Part shown: in pieces, positions 856 to 50,362 of the stretch
Numbering within the stretch: the stretch's first letter is position 1
Layout: each line of letters starts with the position of its first letter
Origin: Planotetraspora silvatica
GTDB lineage: Bacteria; Actinomycetota; Actinomycetes; Streptosporangiales; Streptosporangiaceae
Assembly: GCF_016863315.1 (NCBI RefSeq)
Contig: NZ_BOOQ01000002.1
Location: 62,001 to 126,000, forward strand
Direction: 5' to 3'
DNA: 64,000 bases
The notes under the pieces: model-generated
Databases searched by the model: none
Told to the model about the DNA's origin: nothing
Seen by the model: the letters and a program-made list of their open reading frames with translations, nothing else
Made by a program: the position numbers and the translations under genes

Positions 856-898
856 TCAGCGGGCCATATCCCCCAGGGCCCCGCCCCCCTTTTGGGTG

Positions 899-1303
899 GT
901 GATCATGCACAGGTTCGGTGAACGGCCCATTGACATGCACAAACCCCAGCCGTGATCATGCACGAGTTCGGCAAAATGGCCCTGACCTGCGGATTCCGCT
1001 TCCGTGATCATGCACGGATTCGGGAAAGCGCCCCACCACCAGGGCGAATTCAACGCGTGATCATGCAACGAGCCCGCCATTGCATGATCACGGCCGATAT
1101 CGGCCCAGGTCGACGACCCGATCGCCGAACGTGTGCATGATCACGCCCGCGGTTTGACCAGGTCACGCGGCAAGATCCCGAATCCGTGCATGATCACGGA
1201 CCGGGTTCGCCCACGTCCACGGCACACTCGCCGAACTCGTGCATGATCACGAACCCGGGAACCTTAGGTCACCAGACCTTTCCCCGAACCTGTGCATGAT
1301 CAC
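899..1303. repeat. 53-bp phased inverted repeat array (array 1)
   Basis: The 456-base gap 856-1311 between two convergent genes is filled by this array. The head GTGATCATGCAC starts at 899, 952, 1004 and 1057 on the plus strand. Its reverse complement starts at 1080, 1133, 1186, 1239 and 1292. Steps are 53, 52, 53, then 53 four times. Heads extend to GTGATCATGCACRNRTTCGG, and some units also share a tail like TGACCTGGnCAAACC. The innermost pair (1057-1068 and 1080-1091) is a perfect 12-bp inverted repeat around an 11-nt loop. Outer pairs carry matching triplets: 899/1292 AGG, 952/1239 GAG, 1004/1186 GGA. The first units met by each flanking gene's transcript read in the same sense as that transcript. 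Function unknown; a REP/BIME-like 3'-end element is my inference. Confidence 0.9.
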
Positions 1304-1311
1304 GCCCGATT

Positions 1312-2949: not shown

Positions 2950-3115
2950 CGATCCTCCTCGATCCGGGCCCGGCATCCCTCACAAGTGCCCGCTATCCAG
3001 CGCGCGATTCAACCACCTTGCAGGGATACTTCCCGTTTTGTACGGCTAACGCCCCCGCCGCCGCGACCAGGCACAGGCTCCGGGACCCTACCCCTCCCCG
3101 GCGAAAAGCCCGACC

Positions 3116-3215
3116 GTGATCATGCAAAGACTCGTCCTGACCGGCCGACGTCCGGCGAACCGGGCCGTGCCGGCGAGGTCCCGTGCGCGATCGCCCCCAC
3201 GATCACGCACGGGTC
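3116..3215. repeat. Single and degenerate copies of the 53-bp repeat (array 2)
   Basis: One clear head, GTGATCATGCAA, starts at 3116 and is followed by a tail-like CTGACCGG. Two weaker matches lie nearer the gltD stop: GTGCGCGATCGC at 3183 resembles an inverted head, and ACGATCACGCAC at 3199 resembles a forward head with three transitions. The remnant sits in the gap between the gltD stop (3223) and the start of the S8 protease gene (2949), which are transcribed in the same direction. It looks like a decayed or minimal array. The first match is convincing; the two others are tentative. Confidence 0.6.
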
Positions 3216-23029: not shown

Positions 23030-24109
23030 ATGTTTTCGGCCATGCCAGACCAAGCAGTCAGCCTCCGCGGCCTGCGCAAGAGCTTCGGGAGCGTCGAGGC
23101 GGTCGCCGGCGTGGACCTCGATGTCGCCGACGGGGAGTTCTTCGCGATGCTCGGGCCGTCCGGTTCGGGGAAGACGACCGTGCTGCGGATGATCGCCGGA
23201 TTCGAGTCACCGACGGCCGGGACCGTCGAACTGGCCGGCCGTGACGTCACCCGGCTCGCACCGTTCGAGCGCGACGTGAACACCGTCTTTCAGGACTACG
23301 CCCTGTTCCCGCACATGAGCGTGCTGGAGAACGTGGAGTACGGCCTGCGGGTGAAGAAGGTGGCCAGGGCTCCGCGGCGGGAGCGGGCCCTGGAGGCCCT
23401 GCGCACGGTGCGTCTCGAAGGCTTCGAGAAACGGCGCCCGGGCCAGCTGTCGGGAGGCCAGCGCCAGCGTGTGGCGCTGGCCCGCGCCCTCGTCAACCGT
23501 CCGCGCGTGCTCCTGCTCGACGAGCCCCTCGGGGCGCTCGACCTCAAGTTACGCGAGGAGATGCAGGTCGAGCTGAAGGCGATCCAGCGCGAGGTCGGCA
23601 TCACCTTCCTGTTCGTCACCCACGACCAGGAGGAGGCGCTCACGATGAGCGACCGGGTCGCGGTGTTCAACCAGGGCAGGATCGAGCAGATCGGCACTCC
23701 GGCCGAGATCTACGAGCGGCCCGCCAGCGCGTTCGTGGCCGGCTTCGTCGGCACGTCGAACCTGATCTCCGGCGAGGCGGCGCGGGCCGTCCTCGGCAAG
23801 GAGGGCACCTTCAGCGTCCGGCCGGAGAAGCTGCGGGTGGTCGCGGGTGACGGCGAGACACCGGGGCCGGACGAGCACAGCGCGTCGGGGACGGTGTCCG
23901 AGGTGGTCTACGCCGGGCCGGCGACCCGCTTCGTCGTCGACCTCGACGCCGGCGTGCGGCTGATCGCTCTGCAGCAGAACCTGCAGGTCTCGTCCATGGA
24001 CGTCATGGGCCTGCGGGGCACCAGGGTCAGCCTCGTGTGGCACCGCCGGCACGAGTTCGCGATCGCGGACGTGAGCCTGGCCGTACCCCGGGAAGCGGCA
24101 CACCCATGA
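23030..24109 (+). CDS. Spermidine/putrescine-type ABC importer, ATP-binding protein
   Basis: A PotA-like ATPase of 359 residues. Walker A is GPSGSGKTT (about 42-50), the Q-loop is [11 protein letters not shown], the signature [15 protein letters not shown], Walker [14 protein letters not shown], and the switch His is in [10 protein letters not shown]-terminal TOBE-type regulatory domain follows (about 240-359). Two starts are possible, ATG 23030 and ATG 23042 (MPDQAVSL); neither has a strong ribosome binding site. It opens the importer cluster, divergent from the GntR gene. Substrate class is inferred from the binding protein and permeases. Confidence 0.93.
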
Positions 24110-24177: not shown

Positions 24178-25404
24178 ATGCGATCCCCCCACCGGCGTAT
24201 CCGCCGGCACAGTCTCATCGCCACCGCCGCGCTGGCGCTCGCCGCCGTGGCGGGCTGCGGCGGCGGTTCGTCCACGACCGGCTCGGCCCCCGCACCGGGG
24301 AGCACCGGTTTCACGCCGCCCAAGATCGAGGCGCTGAAGTCCCTCGGGCAGGGCGAAGGCCAGGTCAACCTGGTGGCCTGGGCGGGGTACGCCGAAGACG
24401 GCTCCAACGACCCGAAGGTCGACTGGGTGCATCCCTTCGAGCAGGCCACCGGCTGCAAGGTCAACACCAAGACCGCCGGCACCTCGGACGAGATGGTCAA
24501 CCTGATGAAGACCGGCGAGTACGACGCCGTGTCCGCCTCGGGCGACGCCTCGCTGCGGCTGATCGCCTCGGGCACGGTCGCGCCGGTGAACACCGACCTC
24601 ATCCCCAACTACAAGGATGTGTTCGAGGGCCTCAAGCTCAAGCCGTGGAACTCCGTGAACGGAGTCCCCTACGGCGTGCCGCACGGCCGTGGCGCGAACC
24701 TCCTGATGTGGCGGACGGACAAGGTCACGACGCCGCCGGACTCGTGGAGCGTCGTGTTCGACGGGGCCTCGCCGTACAAGGGGCACGTGACGGCGTACGA
24801 CTCGCCGATCTACATCGCCGACGCGGCGCTGTACCTGATGTCCACCAAGCCCGAGCTCGGCATCAAGGACCCGTACGCGCTGGACGACAAGCAACTCCAG
24901 GCGGCGGTCGACCTGCTGAAGCAGCAGAAGACGAACATCGGCGAGTACTGGTCCGACTACACCAAGGCGGTCCAGAGCTTCAAGAGCGGCGACACCGTGG
25001 TGGGGACGACCTGGCAGGTCATCGCCAACCTGACCGAGGCCGAGAAGGCGCCGGTCCAGGTGACGCTGCCCAAGGAGGGCTCGACCGGCTGGTCGGACAC
25101 CTGGATGGTCGCGGCCAAGGCCCAGCACCCCAGCTGTGCGTACAAGTGGATGGACTGGATCATCTCCCCCAAGGCCAACGCCCAGGTGGCGGAGTGGTTC
25201 GGCGAGGCCCCGTCCAATGCCAAGGCGTGTGACGAGACGTCCGACAAGACGTTCTGCGACACCTTCCACGCAGCCGACGAGAGCTACTTCTCCAAGGTCC
25301 ACTACTGGACCACGCCGATCGCCCAGTGCCTCGACGGCCGTACGGACGTCAAGTGCACCGACTACTCGGAGTGGACCCGAGCCTGGACCGAGATCAAGGG
25401 CTGA
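24178..25404 (+). CDS. Spermidine/putrescine-type ABC importer, substrate-binding lipoprotein
   Basis: A PotD-like binding protein of 408 residues. A twin-Arg-rich N-terminus, hydrophobic stretch and lipobox AAVAGC make Cys27 the lipidated residue. Fold marks of this class are VNLVAWAGYAEDGSND, DAVSASGDASLRLIASG, YGVPHGRGANLLMW and VGTTWQVIANLTEAE. AAGGAGAA precedes ATG 24178. The mature protein would capture the ligand outside the membrane. A 451-base gap holding repeat array 3 separates this gene from the permease genes on the same strand, which is unusual inside an importer operon. Ligand not proven; polyamine or a related cation is likely. Confidence 0.92.
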   Translation: MRSPHRRIRRHSLIATAALALAAVAGCGGGSSTTGSAPAPGSTGFTPPKIEALKSLGQGEGQVNLVAWAGYAEDGSNDPKVDWVHPFEQATGCKVNTKTAGTSDEMVNLMKTGEYDAVSASGDASLRLIASGTVAPVNTDLIPNYKDVFEGLKLKPWNSVNGVPYGVPHGRGANLLMWRTDKVTTPPDSWSVVFDGASPYKGHVTAYDSPIYIADAALYLMSTKPELGIKDPYALDDKQLQAAVDLLKQQKTNIGEYWSDYTKAVQSFKSGDTVVGTTWQVIANLTEAEKAPVQVTLPKEGSTGWSDTWMVAAKAQHPSCAYKWMDWIISPKANAQVAEWFGEAPSNAKACDETSDKTFCDTFHAADESYFSKVHYWTTPIAQCLDGRTDVKCTDYSEWTRAWTEIKG

Positions 25405-25439
25405 CCCCTGTTAGGCCGTTGTTTGGCCGTTGTTTGGCC

Positions 25440-25792
25440 GTGATCATGCACAGGTTCGGAAGCAGGCCGACTGACCAGGCCAAACCCCGGGCGTGATCAT
25501 GCACAGGTTCGGCGGCAGGTCCACTGACCAGGCGAAATCCAGTTCGTGATCATGCGCGGGTTCGGAGATGCGCCGGCCCAGCTGGGAGAACACAGTTCGT
25601 GATCATACACTCGGCGACGGCGTGCATGATCACGAACGGCATCGCCGCAAGCCGGACGGCACGTGCGCGAACTTGCGCATGATCACGGCATGCATCACCG
25701 CAGCCCAGCCCGGATGATCACGAATGTGTGCATGATCACGGCGGGGGTTGGGGCAGGTCGCACGGGGTGCCCGCGAATGTGTGCATGATCAC
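25440..25792. repeat. 53-bp phased inverted repeat array (array 3)
   Basis: The gap 25405-25855 holds this array and little else. Forward heads start at 25440, 25493, 25546 and 25599; inverted heads start at 25622, 25675, 25728 and 25781. Every step is 53 bases. The innermost pair (25599-25610 and 25622-25633) again leaves an 11-nt loop, exactly as in array 1, here with one mismatch. The first two forward units share most of their 53 bases, including ACTGACCAGGC and AAA. The array begins 36 bases after the binding-protein stop and ends 64 bases before the first permease start. Two runs of TTGGCCGTTG precede it. Confidence 0.9.
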
Positions 25793-25855
25793 GCGCGAGA
25801 CATGCGCGCGAGATGTGCGCGCGAGAGGGGCGTGGAGAGTGAGGGAGACGGACGC

Positions 25856-26731
25856 ATGACGGCGAGTGGTGTTTTGGGGGATGAGGAGGCCGCGGGCCTT
25901 CGGCGGGGGGTGGCGGCCTTCTTGCACAGGCACGCCCGCGTACGGCTGTCGCTGCTGCTATCGGCCCCCCTCGCCTGGCTGGGCCTGGCGTACCTGGGCT
26001 CCCTGGCCGCCCTGTTCGTGACCGCCTTCTGGTCGACCGACACCTTCACCGGCGACCTGGTCAAGGTCTTCACCTGGGCCAACTTCCAGGACCTCGTCAC
26101 GGGTGAGGTCTACCGGACGGTCGCCCTGCGCTCCCTCTGGGTCGCCGCCGCGGTGACGGTCATCGACCTGGTGATCGCCTTCCCCATGGCGTTCGCGATG
26201 GCCAAGCTCACCTCGCCGCGTGCCCAGCGGTGGCTGGTGATCCTCGTCCTCACTCCGCTGTGGGCCTCCTACCTGGTCAAGGCGTACGCCTGGCGGGTGT
26301 TGCTCTCGTCCGACGGCATCCTCGGCTGGGGGTACGGCCTGACCGCGACGATCGCGACTCTCTCCTACCTCTGGTTGCCGTACATGATCCTGCCGATCTA
26401 CGCGGGCCTCGAAAGGCTGCCCAACGCCCTGCTGGACGCGTCCGGCGACCTCGGAGCCCGCGGCTGGCGGACGTTCAGGACCGTGGTGTGGCCGCTGACG
26501 TTCCCGGCCGTCGTCGCGGGTTCGATCTTCACGTTCTCGTTGTCGCTGGGCGACTACATCACCGTGAAGATCGTCGGCGGCAAGTCGCAGCTCATCGGCA
26601 ACGTCGTCTACGACAACATCGGCGCGGCCAACAACCTCCCCTTCGCCGCGGCCGTGGCCACCGTCCCGGTCCTGATCATGCTGGTCTACCTCGCGGCCGT
26701 CCGCCGTACCGGCGCGCTGGACAACCTGTGA
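25856..26731 (+). CDS. Spermidine/putrescine-type ABC importer, permease 1
   Basis: A PotB-like permease of 291 residues with six predicted membrane segments. The cytosolic EAA-like loop that contacts the ATPase reads DASGDLGARGWRTFRTVVWPLTFPAVVAG. I chose ATG 25856, preceded by GAGGGAG; in-frame codons further upstream come from the repeat array. It lies 13 bases before the second permease gene, so these two form one translation unit. Expression relative to the binding protein may be set by array 3 between them. Confidence 0.93.
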   Translation: MTASGVLGDEEAAGLRRGVAAFLHRHARVRLSLLLSAPLAWLGLAYLGSLAALFVTAFWSTDTFTGDLVKVFTWANFQDLVTGEVYRTVALRSLWVAAAVTVIDLVIAFPMAFAMAKLTSPRAQRWLVILVLTPLWASYLVKAYAWRVLLSSDGILGWGYGLTATIATLSYLWLPYMILPIYAGLERLPNALLDASGDLGARGWRTFRTVVWPLTFPAVVAGSIFTFSLSLGDYITVKIVGGKSQLIGNVVYDNIGAANNLPFAAAVATVPVLIMLVYLAAVRRTGALDNL

Positions 26732-26744
26732 AGAAGGAGACGCG

Positions 26745-27542
26745 GTGAATCTGTCCCGTCCGGCCCGCCTGCTGCTCAGGGCCGCACTGGTCCTCGGCCT
26801 CGGCGTCATCTACGTGCCGCTGGCCGTGGTGATCCTCAACTCCTTCAACTCCGACCGCACCTTCGGATGGCCGCCCCCGGGGCTGACGTTCCAGTGGTGG
26901 CATTCGGCGTGGAACTCCAGCGGTGTCCGCGACGCCCTGTGGACTTCGGTCCAGGCGGGGCTCGGCGCCACGGCGATCGCCCTCGTCCTCGGCACGATGG
27001 CCGCCTTCGCGGTGCAGCGGTACCGGTTCTTCGGCAAGAACAGCGTCTCGCTGCTCATCGTGCTGCCGATCGCCCTGCCGGGGATCGTGACCGGCATCGC
27101 GCTGAGCAACACCTTCCACACGGTCCTGGGGATCCCCCTCGGAATGCTGACGGTGATCGTCGGACACGCCACCTTCTGCGTGGTCACGGTCTACAACAAC
27201 GTGCTGGCCCGCCTGCGGCGCATGGGGCTGGGGCTCGAGGAGGCGTCGGCCGACCTGGGCGCCGACACGTTCACCACGTTCCGTCTGGTCACGTTCCCGA
27301 TGATGCGGTCGGCACTGCTCGCGGGCGGTCTGCTGGCCTTCGCGCTCTCGTTCGACGAGATCATCGTGACCACGTTCACCTCGGGCGCGGGAGTCAGGAC
27401 CCTGCCCATCTGGATCTTCGAGAACCTCTTCCGCCCGAACCAGGCCCCCGTGGTCAACGTGGTCGCCGCCGCTCTCATCGTCGTCTCGATCGTCCCCATC
27501 TACTTCGCCCAGCGGCTTTCAGGCGAGACCACCACGCACTGA
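26745..27542 (+). CDS. Spermidine/putrescine-type ABC importer, permease 2
   Basis: A PotC-like permease of 265 residues with six membrane segments. The EAA-like loop is EEASADLGADTFTTFRLVTFPMMRSALLAG, and SFDEIIVTTFTSG is typical of PotC. The GTG at 26745 has AAGGAGA upstream. It ends immediately against the stop of the convergent ABC exporter gene with no spacer (TGA at 27540-27542, then TCA), so any terminator must lie inside a coding region. Confidence 0.93.
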   Translation: MNLSRPARLLLRAALVLGLGVIYVPLAVVILNSFNSDRTFGWPPPGLTFQWWHSAWNSSGVRDALWTSVQAGLGATAIALVLGTMAAFAVQRYRFFGKNSVSLLIVLPIALPGIVTGIALSNTFHTVLGIPLGMLTVIVGHATFCVVTVYNNVLARLRRMGLGLEEASADLGADTFTTFRLVTFPMMRSALLAGGLLAFALSFDEIIVTTFTSGAGVRTLPIWIFENLFRPNQAPVVNVVAAALIVVSIVPIYFAQRLSGETTTH

Positions 27543-47610: not shown

Positions 47611-50226
47611 GTGACCTCTCGCCTCCTCAGCGCCGCCGTCGCGCTGGGCGTGTCCGGTGCGCTGGGCGGCGTCCTGGTCGCGGGACTGGTCCTGCCGCTG
47701 GTGGGCGGGGCCGGGGTCGGCGTGAAGGGGGTCGCGTCCACCTTCACCGACCTGCCCCCGCCTCCCCGCGAGGAACCGCTCCCGGAGATGACCCGGCTGC
47801 TCGATCGCAACGGCACGCAGATCGCGCAGTTCTACTACCAGAACCGGCAGTCGGTGCCCCTCACCCAGGTCGCGCCCGCCATGCAGCAGGCGATCGTCGC
47901 GATCGAGGACGCCCGCTTCTACGAGCACGGTGGGCTCGACATCAAGGGCACCCTGCGGGCGCTGATCACCAACACGCAGGCCGGCGGGATCAAGCAGGGC
48001 GGCTCGTCGCTGACCCAGCAGCTCGTGAAGAACATCATGCTCACCCAGGCCGAGTCGGAGCACGAGCGTGCGCTGGCCCGGGTCAAGAACATCCAGCGCA
48101 AGATCACCGAGTTGCGGTACGCGCTGGCGATGGAGAAGAAGTACTCCAAGAAGGAGATCCTGGAGCGCTATCTCAACATCGCCTACTTCGGCGCGGGAGC
48201 CTTCGGCGTCCAGGCCGCGGCGCAGCGGTTCTTCGACACCGACGCCGCGGACCTGACGCTCGCCCAGGCCGCCACGCTCGCGGGGGCCGTGCGGACGCCG
48301 TCCGACACCGACCCCGCCCTCGGCGACGAGGAGCAGGCGCGGCTGCTGGAGCGGCGCAACATCGTGCTCGACCGGATGGCCGACCTGAAGATGATCACGC
48401 CTGCCGTGGACAAGTCCACGGCGGCGAGCCCGCTCGACCTGCACATGCGCGGCGAGCCAGGAGGGTGCGGCGGCAGCGCCTACCCCTTCTTCTGCGTCTA
48501 CGTGGAACACGAGGTGCTCACCAATCCGGCCTTCGGCTACACCCGGGCCGATCGTGAACGCCGCCTCCAGCGGGGCGGGCTCACCCTGTGGACCTCGATC
48601 GATCCGATCGCCCAGAAGTCCGCGCAACAGGCCATCGCCGAACGGGTCAGGCCGGAGGACACCCAGGTCGCCGCCGAGACCATGGTGGAGCCCGGCACCG
48701 GCCTGATCAGGGCGATGGCCGCCAGCAAGCGGTACGGCCGCAACCCGCGCAACCGGAACTCCGGCCCGAGCACCACCTACAACCTGGCCGCCGACCGGGC
48801 GCACGGCGGCGGCGACGGCTTCCAGGCCGGGTCGACCTTCAAGGCGTTCACCCTGGCCACCGCGCTGTCGCAGGGCTGGCGGTTCGGGGAGGGCTTCCAG
48901 ACCCCGGGGGCCTTCGTGCCCTCCAGCGGCTTCCGCAACTGCGCGGGCAAGCCGGTGAACGATCCGTCGGCCACGATCTACAACGCGAGCGGAGAGGGCA
49001 CCGGCGGGCCGTACAGCCTGGAACTGGGCACCTGGAAGTCGGTCAACATCTTCTACATGAAGCTCGAGCAGGCCGTCGGGCTGTGCAACGTCGTGAAGAC
49101 GGCCAAGGCCCTCGGCATCACCCGGGCCGACGGCAAGCCGCTGCAGGAGGTCCCCACCTTCACGCTGGGGGTCAACGAGATGGACCCCACCACGGTGTCC
49201 GCGGCGTTCGCGACGTTCGCCGCGCGGGGGCGCTACTGCCAGCCCATGGCGATCACCGACATCGTGGAGCGGGACGGGAGCCGGACGCAGATTCCGCCGA
49301 GTTGCACGCAGGCGCTCGACCCCGAGGTCGCCGACGCCGAGAACCACGTGCTGTCCGGCGTCTTCACCCAGGGGACGATGCGCGGCCAGTCGATCGGACG
49401 TCCGGCGGCCGGCAAGACCGGCACGAACAACGGATACACGTCCGCCTGGTTCGCCGGGTACACGCCCAACCTCGCCGCGGCCGTGAGCGTCGGCGACATC
49501 CGCGGCTCCTACCGCTACCCGCTCACGGGCGTCGAGATCGGCGGCCAGTCCTACGGCGCCGTGCAGGGCGCCTCCCTCCCCGGGCCGATCTGGGTCGACT
49601 CCATGTCCGCGGCACTGCAGCACATCGAGCCGTCCGGTTTCGTCCCCCCGGACATGTCCCGGTTCGGCGGAGGCTTCACACCCGGCCTGAGGGAGTCCCT
49701 CGACGAGGATGACCGGCGCAGAGGCCGGGACGGCGACCGGGACGGCGGCCGGGACCACGGGGACGGCACGGACCGGGCCACGGGCGAAGGGCCCGGCGGC
49801 GCAGACGGAGGCGCGGACGCACGGCCACACGGCCGGCACGGCGCATGGCCGAACGGCTGGCAGGGCGGCCCGCGTGGCGGCCGCCCCGACATCCGGCACG
49901 ACCGCCGCCACGCCGGCCCTCGCGGCCACGCGCGCGCAGACCGCCCCGGCGCCTCACACAGGACCACACCCGGGGGGCATCGCGACGCCGGCCGTGCCGT
50001 GGCCCCAGCGCCCGGCGGCGACGCCGTCCAGGCGACCAGCCCGCCGCGAGCCCCGCATGCGGCCCCCACCAGCCGGCCCCACCCCAGCCGGCCCCACCCA
50101 ACTCAGCCCCACACCAGTCAGGCCCACACAGCTCAGGCCCACATCACTCGGGCCCACAAACAACCGGCACCCGCCCGCCCTCACCCTCGCCGTGATCATG
50201 CACAGGTTCGTGATCACGGCACCTGA
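47611..50226 (+). CDS. Bifunctional class A penicillin-binding protein
   Basis: An 871-residue peptidoglycan synthase. An N-terminal anchor (about 5-35) is followed by a glycosyltransferase domain with Glu99 (IEDARFYEHGG) and GGSSLTQQLVKN, then a transpeptidase with Ser408 (AGSTFKAFT), SVN and KTGTNNG (about 600). The C-terminal 170 residues are low complexity: first Arg/Asp/Gly-rich, then Thr/Pro/His-rich. The last codons come from repeat array 4, whose first unit encodes RDHAQVRDHGT and supplies the stop. The GTG at 47611 starts MTSRLLSAAV. It follows murA by 51 bases, suggesting a cell-wall pair. Confidence 0.92.
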   Translation: MTSRLLSAAVALGVSGALGGVLVAGLVLPLVGGAGVGVKGVASTFTDLPPPPREEPLPEMTRLLDRNGTQIAQFYYQNRQSVPLTQVAPAMQQAIVAIEDARFYEHGGLDIKGTLRALITNTQAGGIKQGGSSLTQQLVKNIMLTQAESEHERALARVKNIQRKITELRYALAMEKKYSKKEILERYLNIAYFGAGAFGVQAAAQRFFDTDAADLTLAQAATLAGAVRTPSDTDPALGDEEQARLLERRNIVLDRMADLKMITPAVDKSTAASPLDLHMRGEPGGCGGSAYPFFCVYVEHEVLTNPAFGYTRADRERRLQRGGLTLWTSIDPIAQKSAQQAIAERVRPEDTQVAAETMVEPGTGLIRAMAASKRYGRNPRNRNSGPSTTYNLAADRAHGGGDGFQAGSTFKAFTLATALSQGWRFGEGFQTPGAFVPSSGFRNCAGKPVNDPSATIYNASGEGTGGPYSLELGTWKSVNIFYMKLEQAVGLCNVVKTAKALGITRADGKPLQEVPTFTLGVNEMDPTTVSAAFATFAARGRYCQPMAITDIVERDGSRTQIPPSCTQALDPEVADAENHVLSGVFTQGTMRGQSIGRPAAGKTGTNNGYTSAWFAGYTPNLAAAVSVGDIRGSYRYPLTGVEIGGQSYGAVQGASLPGPIWVDSMSAALQHIEPSGFVPPDMSRFGGGFTPGLRESLDEDDRRRGRDGDRDGGRDHGDGTDRATGEGPGGADGGADARPHGRHGAWPNGWQGGPRGGRPDIRHDRRHAGPRGHARADRPGASHRTTPGGHRDAGRAVAPAPGGDAVQATSPPRAPHAAPTSRPHPSRPHPTQPHTSQAHTAQAHITRAHKQPAPARPHPRRDHAQVRDHGT

Positions 50227-50362
50227 CCTGCCCGCCCACCGACCGTGATCATGCACATATTCGCGATCAAGCCCTCCGACCTGCACACTCGTCCATCGTG
50301 ATCATGCACGGATTCGCGATCAACGCCCGCGACCTGCGCGGACGCACTTCGTGATCATGCAC
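50192..50362 (+). repeat. 53-bp phased repeat array, forward units only (array 4)
   Basis: Heads GTGATCATGCAC start at 50192, 50245, 50298 and 50351, all on the plus strand at exact 53-base steps. After the head, units share TTCGyGATCA and GACCTG. No inverted arm is present: the last unit ends 17 bases before the stop of the convergent MerR gene. The first unit lies inside the PBP reading frame. This looks like half of the structure seen in arrays 1 and 3. Confidence 0.9.

Follow-up and report, generated by a model that had tools for sequence, protein, structure and literature searches.

Introduction

Repeats that occur in high copy outside genes are commonly attributed either to hairpin formation or to past transposition. 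In E. coli, REP elements between malE and malF stabilize the upstream mRNA and thereby raise the amount of binding protein over permease. The DNA uptake sequences of Neisseria and Haemophilus have a short fixed core in high copy, often arranged as inverted pairs at gene ends, and the TTF-I Sal boxes and Reb1 sites of eukaryotes are tandem roadblock terminators, in which protein sites just downstream of genes determine where transcripts end.

Here we analyze a 64,000-nucleotide stretch of the Planotetraspora silvatica genome (NCBI RefSeq assembly GCF_016863315.1, contig NZ_BOOQ01000002.1, positions 62,001 to 126,000; hereafter "the window"), in which an importer operon carries an array of repeats after its binding-protein gene and before its permease genes. 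The family to which this array belongs shares a short fixed core, high copy number and inverted pairs at gene ends with DNA uptake sequences, which lack 53-bp phased multi-unit arrays. The likeness to TTF-I Sal boxes and Reb1 is one of analogy only: the sites are oriented, repeated and downstream of genes, but the organisms and sequences differ and a factor for the arrays is putative. Like intrinsic terminators and intercistronic hairpins, the arrays begin just past stop codons, and they occupy the positions of hairpins in an array-less relative; unlike intrinsic terminators, the array unit has no hairpin with a U-tract, and the single one-arm array that was folded has no special RNA structure. 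The arrays also resemble the REP and BIME elements of E. coli and others, which are likewise extragenic, present in high copy at gene ends, accompanied by inverted neighbors and able to sit within operons. According to PMC3733652, however, REPs are palindromes of 20–40 bp that carry a GTAG or CGTC tag and are tied to RAYT transposases, whereas the array unit is 53 bp long and has three separated blocks.

We found no account of these 53-bp arrays in the literature searched, which included the accessible parts of PMC3733652, PMC7509114 and PMC12306157; the terms Planotetraspora, Microbispora and Streptospor are absent from the accessible text of PMC12306157, and actinobacteria and streptosporang from that of PMC3733652. 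This phased array family, which spans several genera and alternates with hairpins at gene ends, is of greater interest than the role in one importer from which this work started. Its strict motif is kept across genera while the spacers drift, and it occupies sites at which hairpins of the terminator type occur in a relative. Sister species that have the same genes with the array present or absent provide a natural replacement experiment. Two questions thereby become testable: whether arrays of bound protein can set bacterial gene ends in the way that RNA hairpins do, and how one gene-end mode gives way to another. The importer operon is a clean test case for unequal expression of the genes of one operon.

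Results and Discussion

A 53-bp repeat array within an importer operon

The array lies inside an ABC importer operon assigned with Pfam (Table 1), 3' of the binding-protein gene and 5' of the permease genes, where the original prediction had placed it. The four forward and four inverted units claimed there were recovered with the core CGTGATCATGC, all of their same-strand steps being exactly 53 bp; the forward core at 25598 has one mismatch. The outer end of the forward arm is 34 bp past the stop codon of the binding-protein gene, and an extra degenerate inverted core occurs at 25712, 18 bp from the next core. The prediction had also spoken of one array recurring, and the window does contain two further arrays and a lone core.

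Table 1. Coordinates of the importer genes and repeat features in the window.
Feature	Position	Strand	Remarks
Further array of the family	898..1304	.	convergent genes on either side
Lone exact core	3115..3125	+	the one exact core in 885 kb that is not part of an array
ABC importer ATPase (ABC_tran, TOBE_2)	23030..24109	+	Pfam
Solute-binding protein (SBP_bac_8)	24178..25404	+	Pfam
Entire gap from binding-protein gene to permease genes	25405..25855	+
Forward arm, importer array	25439..25608	+	cores at 25439, 25492, 25545, 25598
Central head-to-head palindrome of the two innermost cores	25598..25634	.	26 bp start to start
Inverted arm, importer array	25624..25793	-	cores at 25624, 25677, 25730, 25783
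Permease 1 (BPD_transp_1)	25856..26731	+	Pfam; our own gene caller prefers a later start, 25910
Permease 2 (BPD_transp_1)	26745..27542	+	Pfam
One-arm array, four cores	50191..50360	+	+ strand gene 47611-50226 has its 3' end inside the first unit (our own gene call)

The importer ATPase passes the cut-off for the PotA (polyamine) subfamily, and no substrate model for the binding protein or the permeases reached its cut-off among the matches listed. The binding protein is 99% identical to its counterpart in P. mira. A separate promoter had been named as the alternative explanation for permease expression. Our scan of 25300-25900 yielded no sigma-70-like promoter, a result confined to that class because the scan model is not that of other actinobacterial promoters.

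The array is present in all six Planotetraspora examined (the window and five loci among the best 80 importer loci) and in the importer gap of none of the 75 other loci. Core number ranges from 4 to 9 across the six species, and the central palindrome is kept in every one, with a spacing of 26 bp in five and 25 bp in the sixth.

Units are phased and arms are polarized

Each 53-bp unit has three conserved blocks: CGTGATC(A/T)TGC, TCG at about columns 17-19 and GACCTG at about columns 34-39. The consensus order is CGTGATCATGC, ACaGgTTCG, GACCtG and the next core. The distances between blocks are roughly one, two and two helical turns, which would place all three on one face of the DNA. Neighboring units on the same strand are 53 bp apart, or about five helical turns, in 159 of 177 cases from 885 kb of this genome and a 382-kb contig of P. 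mira; in the same sequences, 26 bp is the commonest spacing of head-to-head centers (5/19). The 885 kb contain 20 arrays, 12 with two inward-pointing arms, seven with one arm and one irregular (346755).

Arms are polarized from the gene side inward. We compared 81 arms with at least three units each, taken from several Planotetraspora. The core is followed by ACAGG in 48 of the outermost units, but in only 24 units at the second position and 12 at the third, and units at the inner end have little in common beyond the core. A hairpin within the unit, with columns 13-16 pairing to 35-38, was considered and rejected, as variation among 338 distinct units does not follow it convincingly. The strong covariation signal between columns 16 and 35 is probably confounded by the mix of units with and without the body, and P. 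thailandica has AGAAG in place of ACAGG while ACCTG is unchanged.

Several units of the array at 50191-50360 contain a second CGTGATCA or CGCGATCA copy 18 bp past the core, and the same is seen at 25712-25730 in the importer array.

Arrays are abundant and favor gene 3' ends

Exact core pairs 52-54 bp apart occur 655 times in this 8.66-Mb genome (335 + 320) and a reversed control pattern not at all, so the pattern is beyond chance. Counts in the other Planotetraspora are 729 (P. thailandica), 571 (P. kaengkrachanensis), 641 (P. mira) and 132 (P. phitsanulokensis), and the control gave 0 in all five genomes. In the 885 kb read for arrays, about 10% of the genome, 120 of 121 exact cores lie within arrays and none inside genes; 30 anagrams of the core served for comparison and gave a mean of 0.4 and a maximum of 3. 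Extrapolation from the 20 arrays in this portion suggests roughly 200 per genome. The low number of exact pairs in P. phitsanulokensis, against 571-729 in the other four genomes, stands apart and indicates ongoing loss or shortening of arrays in this species.

Genes were called with a simple caller of our own, and single flank assignments may err. Convergent gaps hold 10 of the 20 arrays compared to 112 of 594 intergenic regions (Fisher p = 0.002), and divergent gaps hold two, a count subject to the same possible caller error. Of the 32 arms, 22 start at a gene 3' end, from 67 bp before to 68 bp after the stop codon, nine face a gene 5' end and one does neither; this preference was significant relative to the sides of intergenic regions of at least 100 bp (p = 0.0016). 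P. mira, whose arrays are mostly orthologous to those of this genome, has 14 of 19 arms at gene 3' ends. An offset of -5 recurs in 5/22 and 3/14 of these arms in the two genomes, respectively, so that the TGA of CGTGATC is the gene's own stop codon. Ten array neighbors, chosen from 32 proteins, have metabolic, tRNA-processing, cell-wall and regulatory functions (including DAHP synthase, ThiI, lumazine synthase, NlpC/P60, AsnC and Smr) and include no importers. The array family is not importer-specific.

Core sequences are conserved while spacers drift

A segment shared with P. mira carries 11 arrays on each side, in the same order and place when paired by hand. Core columns differ between the species at 20 of 741 sites (2.7%) and spacer columns at 297 of 2204 (13.5%), and this contrast indicates that the cores are kept by selection. 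The 300-bp flanks differ at 441 of 6214 sites (7.1%), a value raised by some misaligned flanks. An alignment of the whole segment, with 77% of 400 kb covered, puts divergence at 5.7% for third codon positions and at 5.2% for other intergenic sites. The spacers (for example at 25450-25782 in the window) therefore change faster than either neutral proxy, at about 13-16% versus 5-6%, and without the two conserved blocks that they contain they differ by 15.6%. Misaligned units cannot account for all of this divergence, because arrays with equal unit numbers also differ by 5-15%.

Arrays alternate with gene-end hairpins

In relatives without the array, the importer gap is -34 to 140 bp long. At sixteen of the 75 array-less loci the gap measures 59-140 bp and has a raw folding energy between -36 and -79 kcal/mol; these loci come from seven Microbispora, four Microtetraspora, two Planobispora, two Streptosporangium and one Sphaerisporangium MAG. 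Gaps of -34 to 15 bp are found at 55 loci, and two loci end too early. At one further locus the 120-bp gap looks like a missed start codon, and at another the gene after the binding protein is on the opposite strand. M. rosea has arrays elsewhere (28 pattern matches), yet it retains a folding gap at the importer. The occurrence of importer hairpins in four array-less genera besides Microbispora suggests that, relative to the hairpin, the array is likely a newcomer at this site.

We then compared gene ends at large, scoring as hairpins those folds below -18 kcal/mol. Convergent ends in this genome have a hairpin in 71% of cases without an array (n = 194) versus 50% with one (n = 20, p = 0.019), and the corresponding values for P. 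mira are 76% (n = 70) and 30% (n = 10, p = 0.003). At codirectional ends, the proportions without and with an array are 57% (n = 316) and 12% (n = 8) in this genome, and 54% (n = 118) and 25% (n = 8) in P. mira, although the hairpin energies do not differ significantly (p = 0.18 and 0.32).

Orthologous ends show the same contrast. At 13 ends with arrays in Planotetraspora, hairpins were found at 11 in an array-less Microbispora (G190) and at three in Planotetraspora; with a cut-off of -22, the counts are 6 and 0. The difference is significant by paired Wilcoxon test over ends (p = 0.0034) and with each of the nine arrays counted once (p = 0.012). No hairpin difference was seen at 114 orthologous ends without arrays (p = 0.31), and the two groups of ends differ from each other (p = 0.006). 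The same comparison with M. rosea offered one array end with an ortholog (n = 1), which agrees. Hairpins are mostly not displaced past the array, because there is little room beyond it. Array 180364 is the exception, with a strong hairpin (-34.8) on its far side, and the leftover sequence at array 62898 and at the importer array reaches about -17. We conclude from these comparisons that the array probably stands in for the 3' hairpins of relatives.

A role in organizing the chromosome or relieving supercoils, of the kind suggested for BIMEs and gyrase, would account for the preference for convergent gaps, where supercoils gather, and for the strict DNA-register spacing. Such a role alone does not predict the loss of hairpins at the same ends, and single-arm arrays are oriented by one gene, the outer end lying at the 3' end of a gene in 10 of 14 cases. 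We regard it as improbable.

A putative DNA-binding factor at gene ends

The reading that we prefer, with slightly less than even confidence, is that the arrays are gene-end elements on whose phased units a putative DNA-binding factor forms a boundary that replaces the 3' hairpin. Units would be stacked about five helical turns apart, inward from the stop codon and often facing a mirror-image arm, and a sequence-specific factor, most likely a DNA-binding protein, would occupy them in register. The bound array would then serve as the gene boundary where relatives rely on a 3' hairpin, whether it halts or slows RNA polymerase or shields the end of the transcript. The importer array occupies the position of a gap that folds strongly in relatives, and so probably restricts read-through toward the permeases. 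Against this model we count the arms that face gene 5' ends (9/32), the arrays in divergent gaps (2/20), the lack of significance at codirectional ends and the hairpin past array 180364. No binding factor was found in the roughly 10% of the genome read, with RAYT as the one protein family tested.

The predicted resemblance to the malE-malF boundary held in part. The folding gap of relatives and the loss of hairpins at array ends support a boundary at the importer, but the feature is not specific to importers. A malE-malF-like stoichiometry role for this array, giving higher binding protein, is a reasonable hypothesis. Identity with REP elements, by contrast, was not borne out. The unit consensus has no GTAG or CGTC tag, seven of the 12 genomes with arrays, that of P. 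silvatica among them, gave no RAYT match (Y1_Tnp, PF01797), and the one-arm array that was folded scored z = -0.6. RAYT matches were found in five of six array-less Microbispora, and an origin from REP/RAYT was rejected, as these transposases do not track the arrays.

The arrays might still act as REP-like stabilizers of RNA, with the two-arm hairpin blocking 3' exonucleases so that binding-protein mRNA outlasts permease mRNA. If transcribed, the whole importer gap, including both arms, would fold at -243 kcal/mol (z = -7.6), and the corresponding gap of relatives also folds strongly. However, seven of the 20 arrays have one arm, and the only one of these folded shows no special RNA structure, as noted above. 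A single arm of the importer array folds slightly better than shuffles (z = -1.7; 10 of 200). Mirrored spacers are barely more complementary (0.56) than spacers of the same arm (0.55) or unrelated ones (0.52), and conservation lies on core sequence and step instead of pairing. Two G-U pairs allow the sense core to self-pair; the CGTGATCTTGC core of genus g55 does so less well. We consider RNA stabilization unlikely.

For the putative gene-end factor, recognition at the DNA level is favored because cores are equally intact in the antisense arm (20/22 in the importer arrays of six species, antisense to both genes) and the sense arm (16/18), because the step is about five helical turns, and because the one-arm array that was folded has no special structure. 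We allow for recognition at the RNA level, with which the two-arm fold, the slight excess of the arm over shuffles and the self-pairing of the core are compatible. No Rfam covariance model matched at its gathering score in the whole window, and a search of 25300-25900 for intrinsic terminators (hairpin plus T run) turned up a single weak site of 5 pairs at 25414, ahead of the array. A C-rich, Rho-type signal is weak: the excess of C over G in arms, read in sense, is +0.047 versus -0.004 (p = 7e-4), and arm GC is 0.61 versus 0.68.

Distribution in related genomes

A general unit pattern was used to survey 297 sampled genomes of the family, with a threshold of at least eight matches. Thirteen genomes reached it: all five Planotetraspora, Planotetraspora sp. 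A-T 1434 (counted as a separate genus in the genome collection), both g55 genomes and five of 15 Microbispora. Unit length and blocks are kept across these genera while the letters change: P. thailandica has AGAAGTTCGG after the core, the Microbispora core is mostly CGTGATCTTG, and the g55 core CGTGATCTTGC occurs with CTCGCA. Arms, each counted once, lie at a gene 3' end in 17 of 21 cases in Microbispora, 3 of 4 in sp. A-T 1434 and 16 of 27 in g55. Planotetraspora, Microbispora sp. H13382, M. rosea and g55 share one array behind the same gene, which encodes a [2Fe-2S] protein with a Fer2_2 domain; we interpret this protein as being of the xanthine-dehydrogenase type. One further array locus of another genus (in G209) also had orthologs among the sequences compared, and the orthologous ends in this genome carry no array.

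The arrays might also be a selfish or passive repeat family that accumulates at gene ends without a function for the host. In favor are their patchiness in Microbispora (5/15 sampled genomes at the threshold) and the variable copy number of the importer array, from 4 to 9 cores. Such a family would not readily explain why cores are held while spacers drift, why Planotetraspora, two Microbispora and g55 have one array in common behind the same gene, or why, in the segment that this genome shares with P. mira, all 11 arrays sit at corresponding sites; RAYT transposases do not track the arrays either. We regard this explanation as quite improbable. In its broader form, the preferred gene-end reading would make the arrays a lineage-specific system, in which a DNA-binding factor on phased, oriented 53-bp arrays sets transcript ends and which has been exchanged with hairpin terminators in several actinobacterial genera; we consider this possible, though doubtful.

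Besides the 13 array-rich genomes, 37 of the 297 have one or two matches each, and in a sample of the phylum, 9 of 395 other genomes have a single match each. These low-count matches are taken as mostly chance, with exceptions. Two viral contigs also matched the pair pattern, and a phage or plasmid origin was rejected, both being taken as unrelated: one has two imperfect units in other surroundings and the other an 18-bp tandem repeat with 37% GC.

Two species of genus g82, that of Microtetraspora niveoalba, have a single similar unit with TATAGCATGGCTGACCTGCACACCC, which is probably one conserved site outside the array-rich genera given its presence in both. At one locus of genus g33, two neighboring copies that resemble the unit lie about 52 bp from each other and start with GTGATCCCA in place of GTGATCATG; they may be distantly related to the array family.
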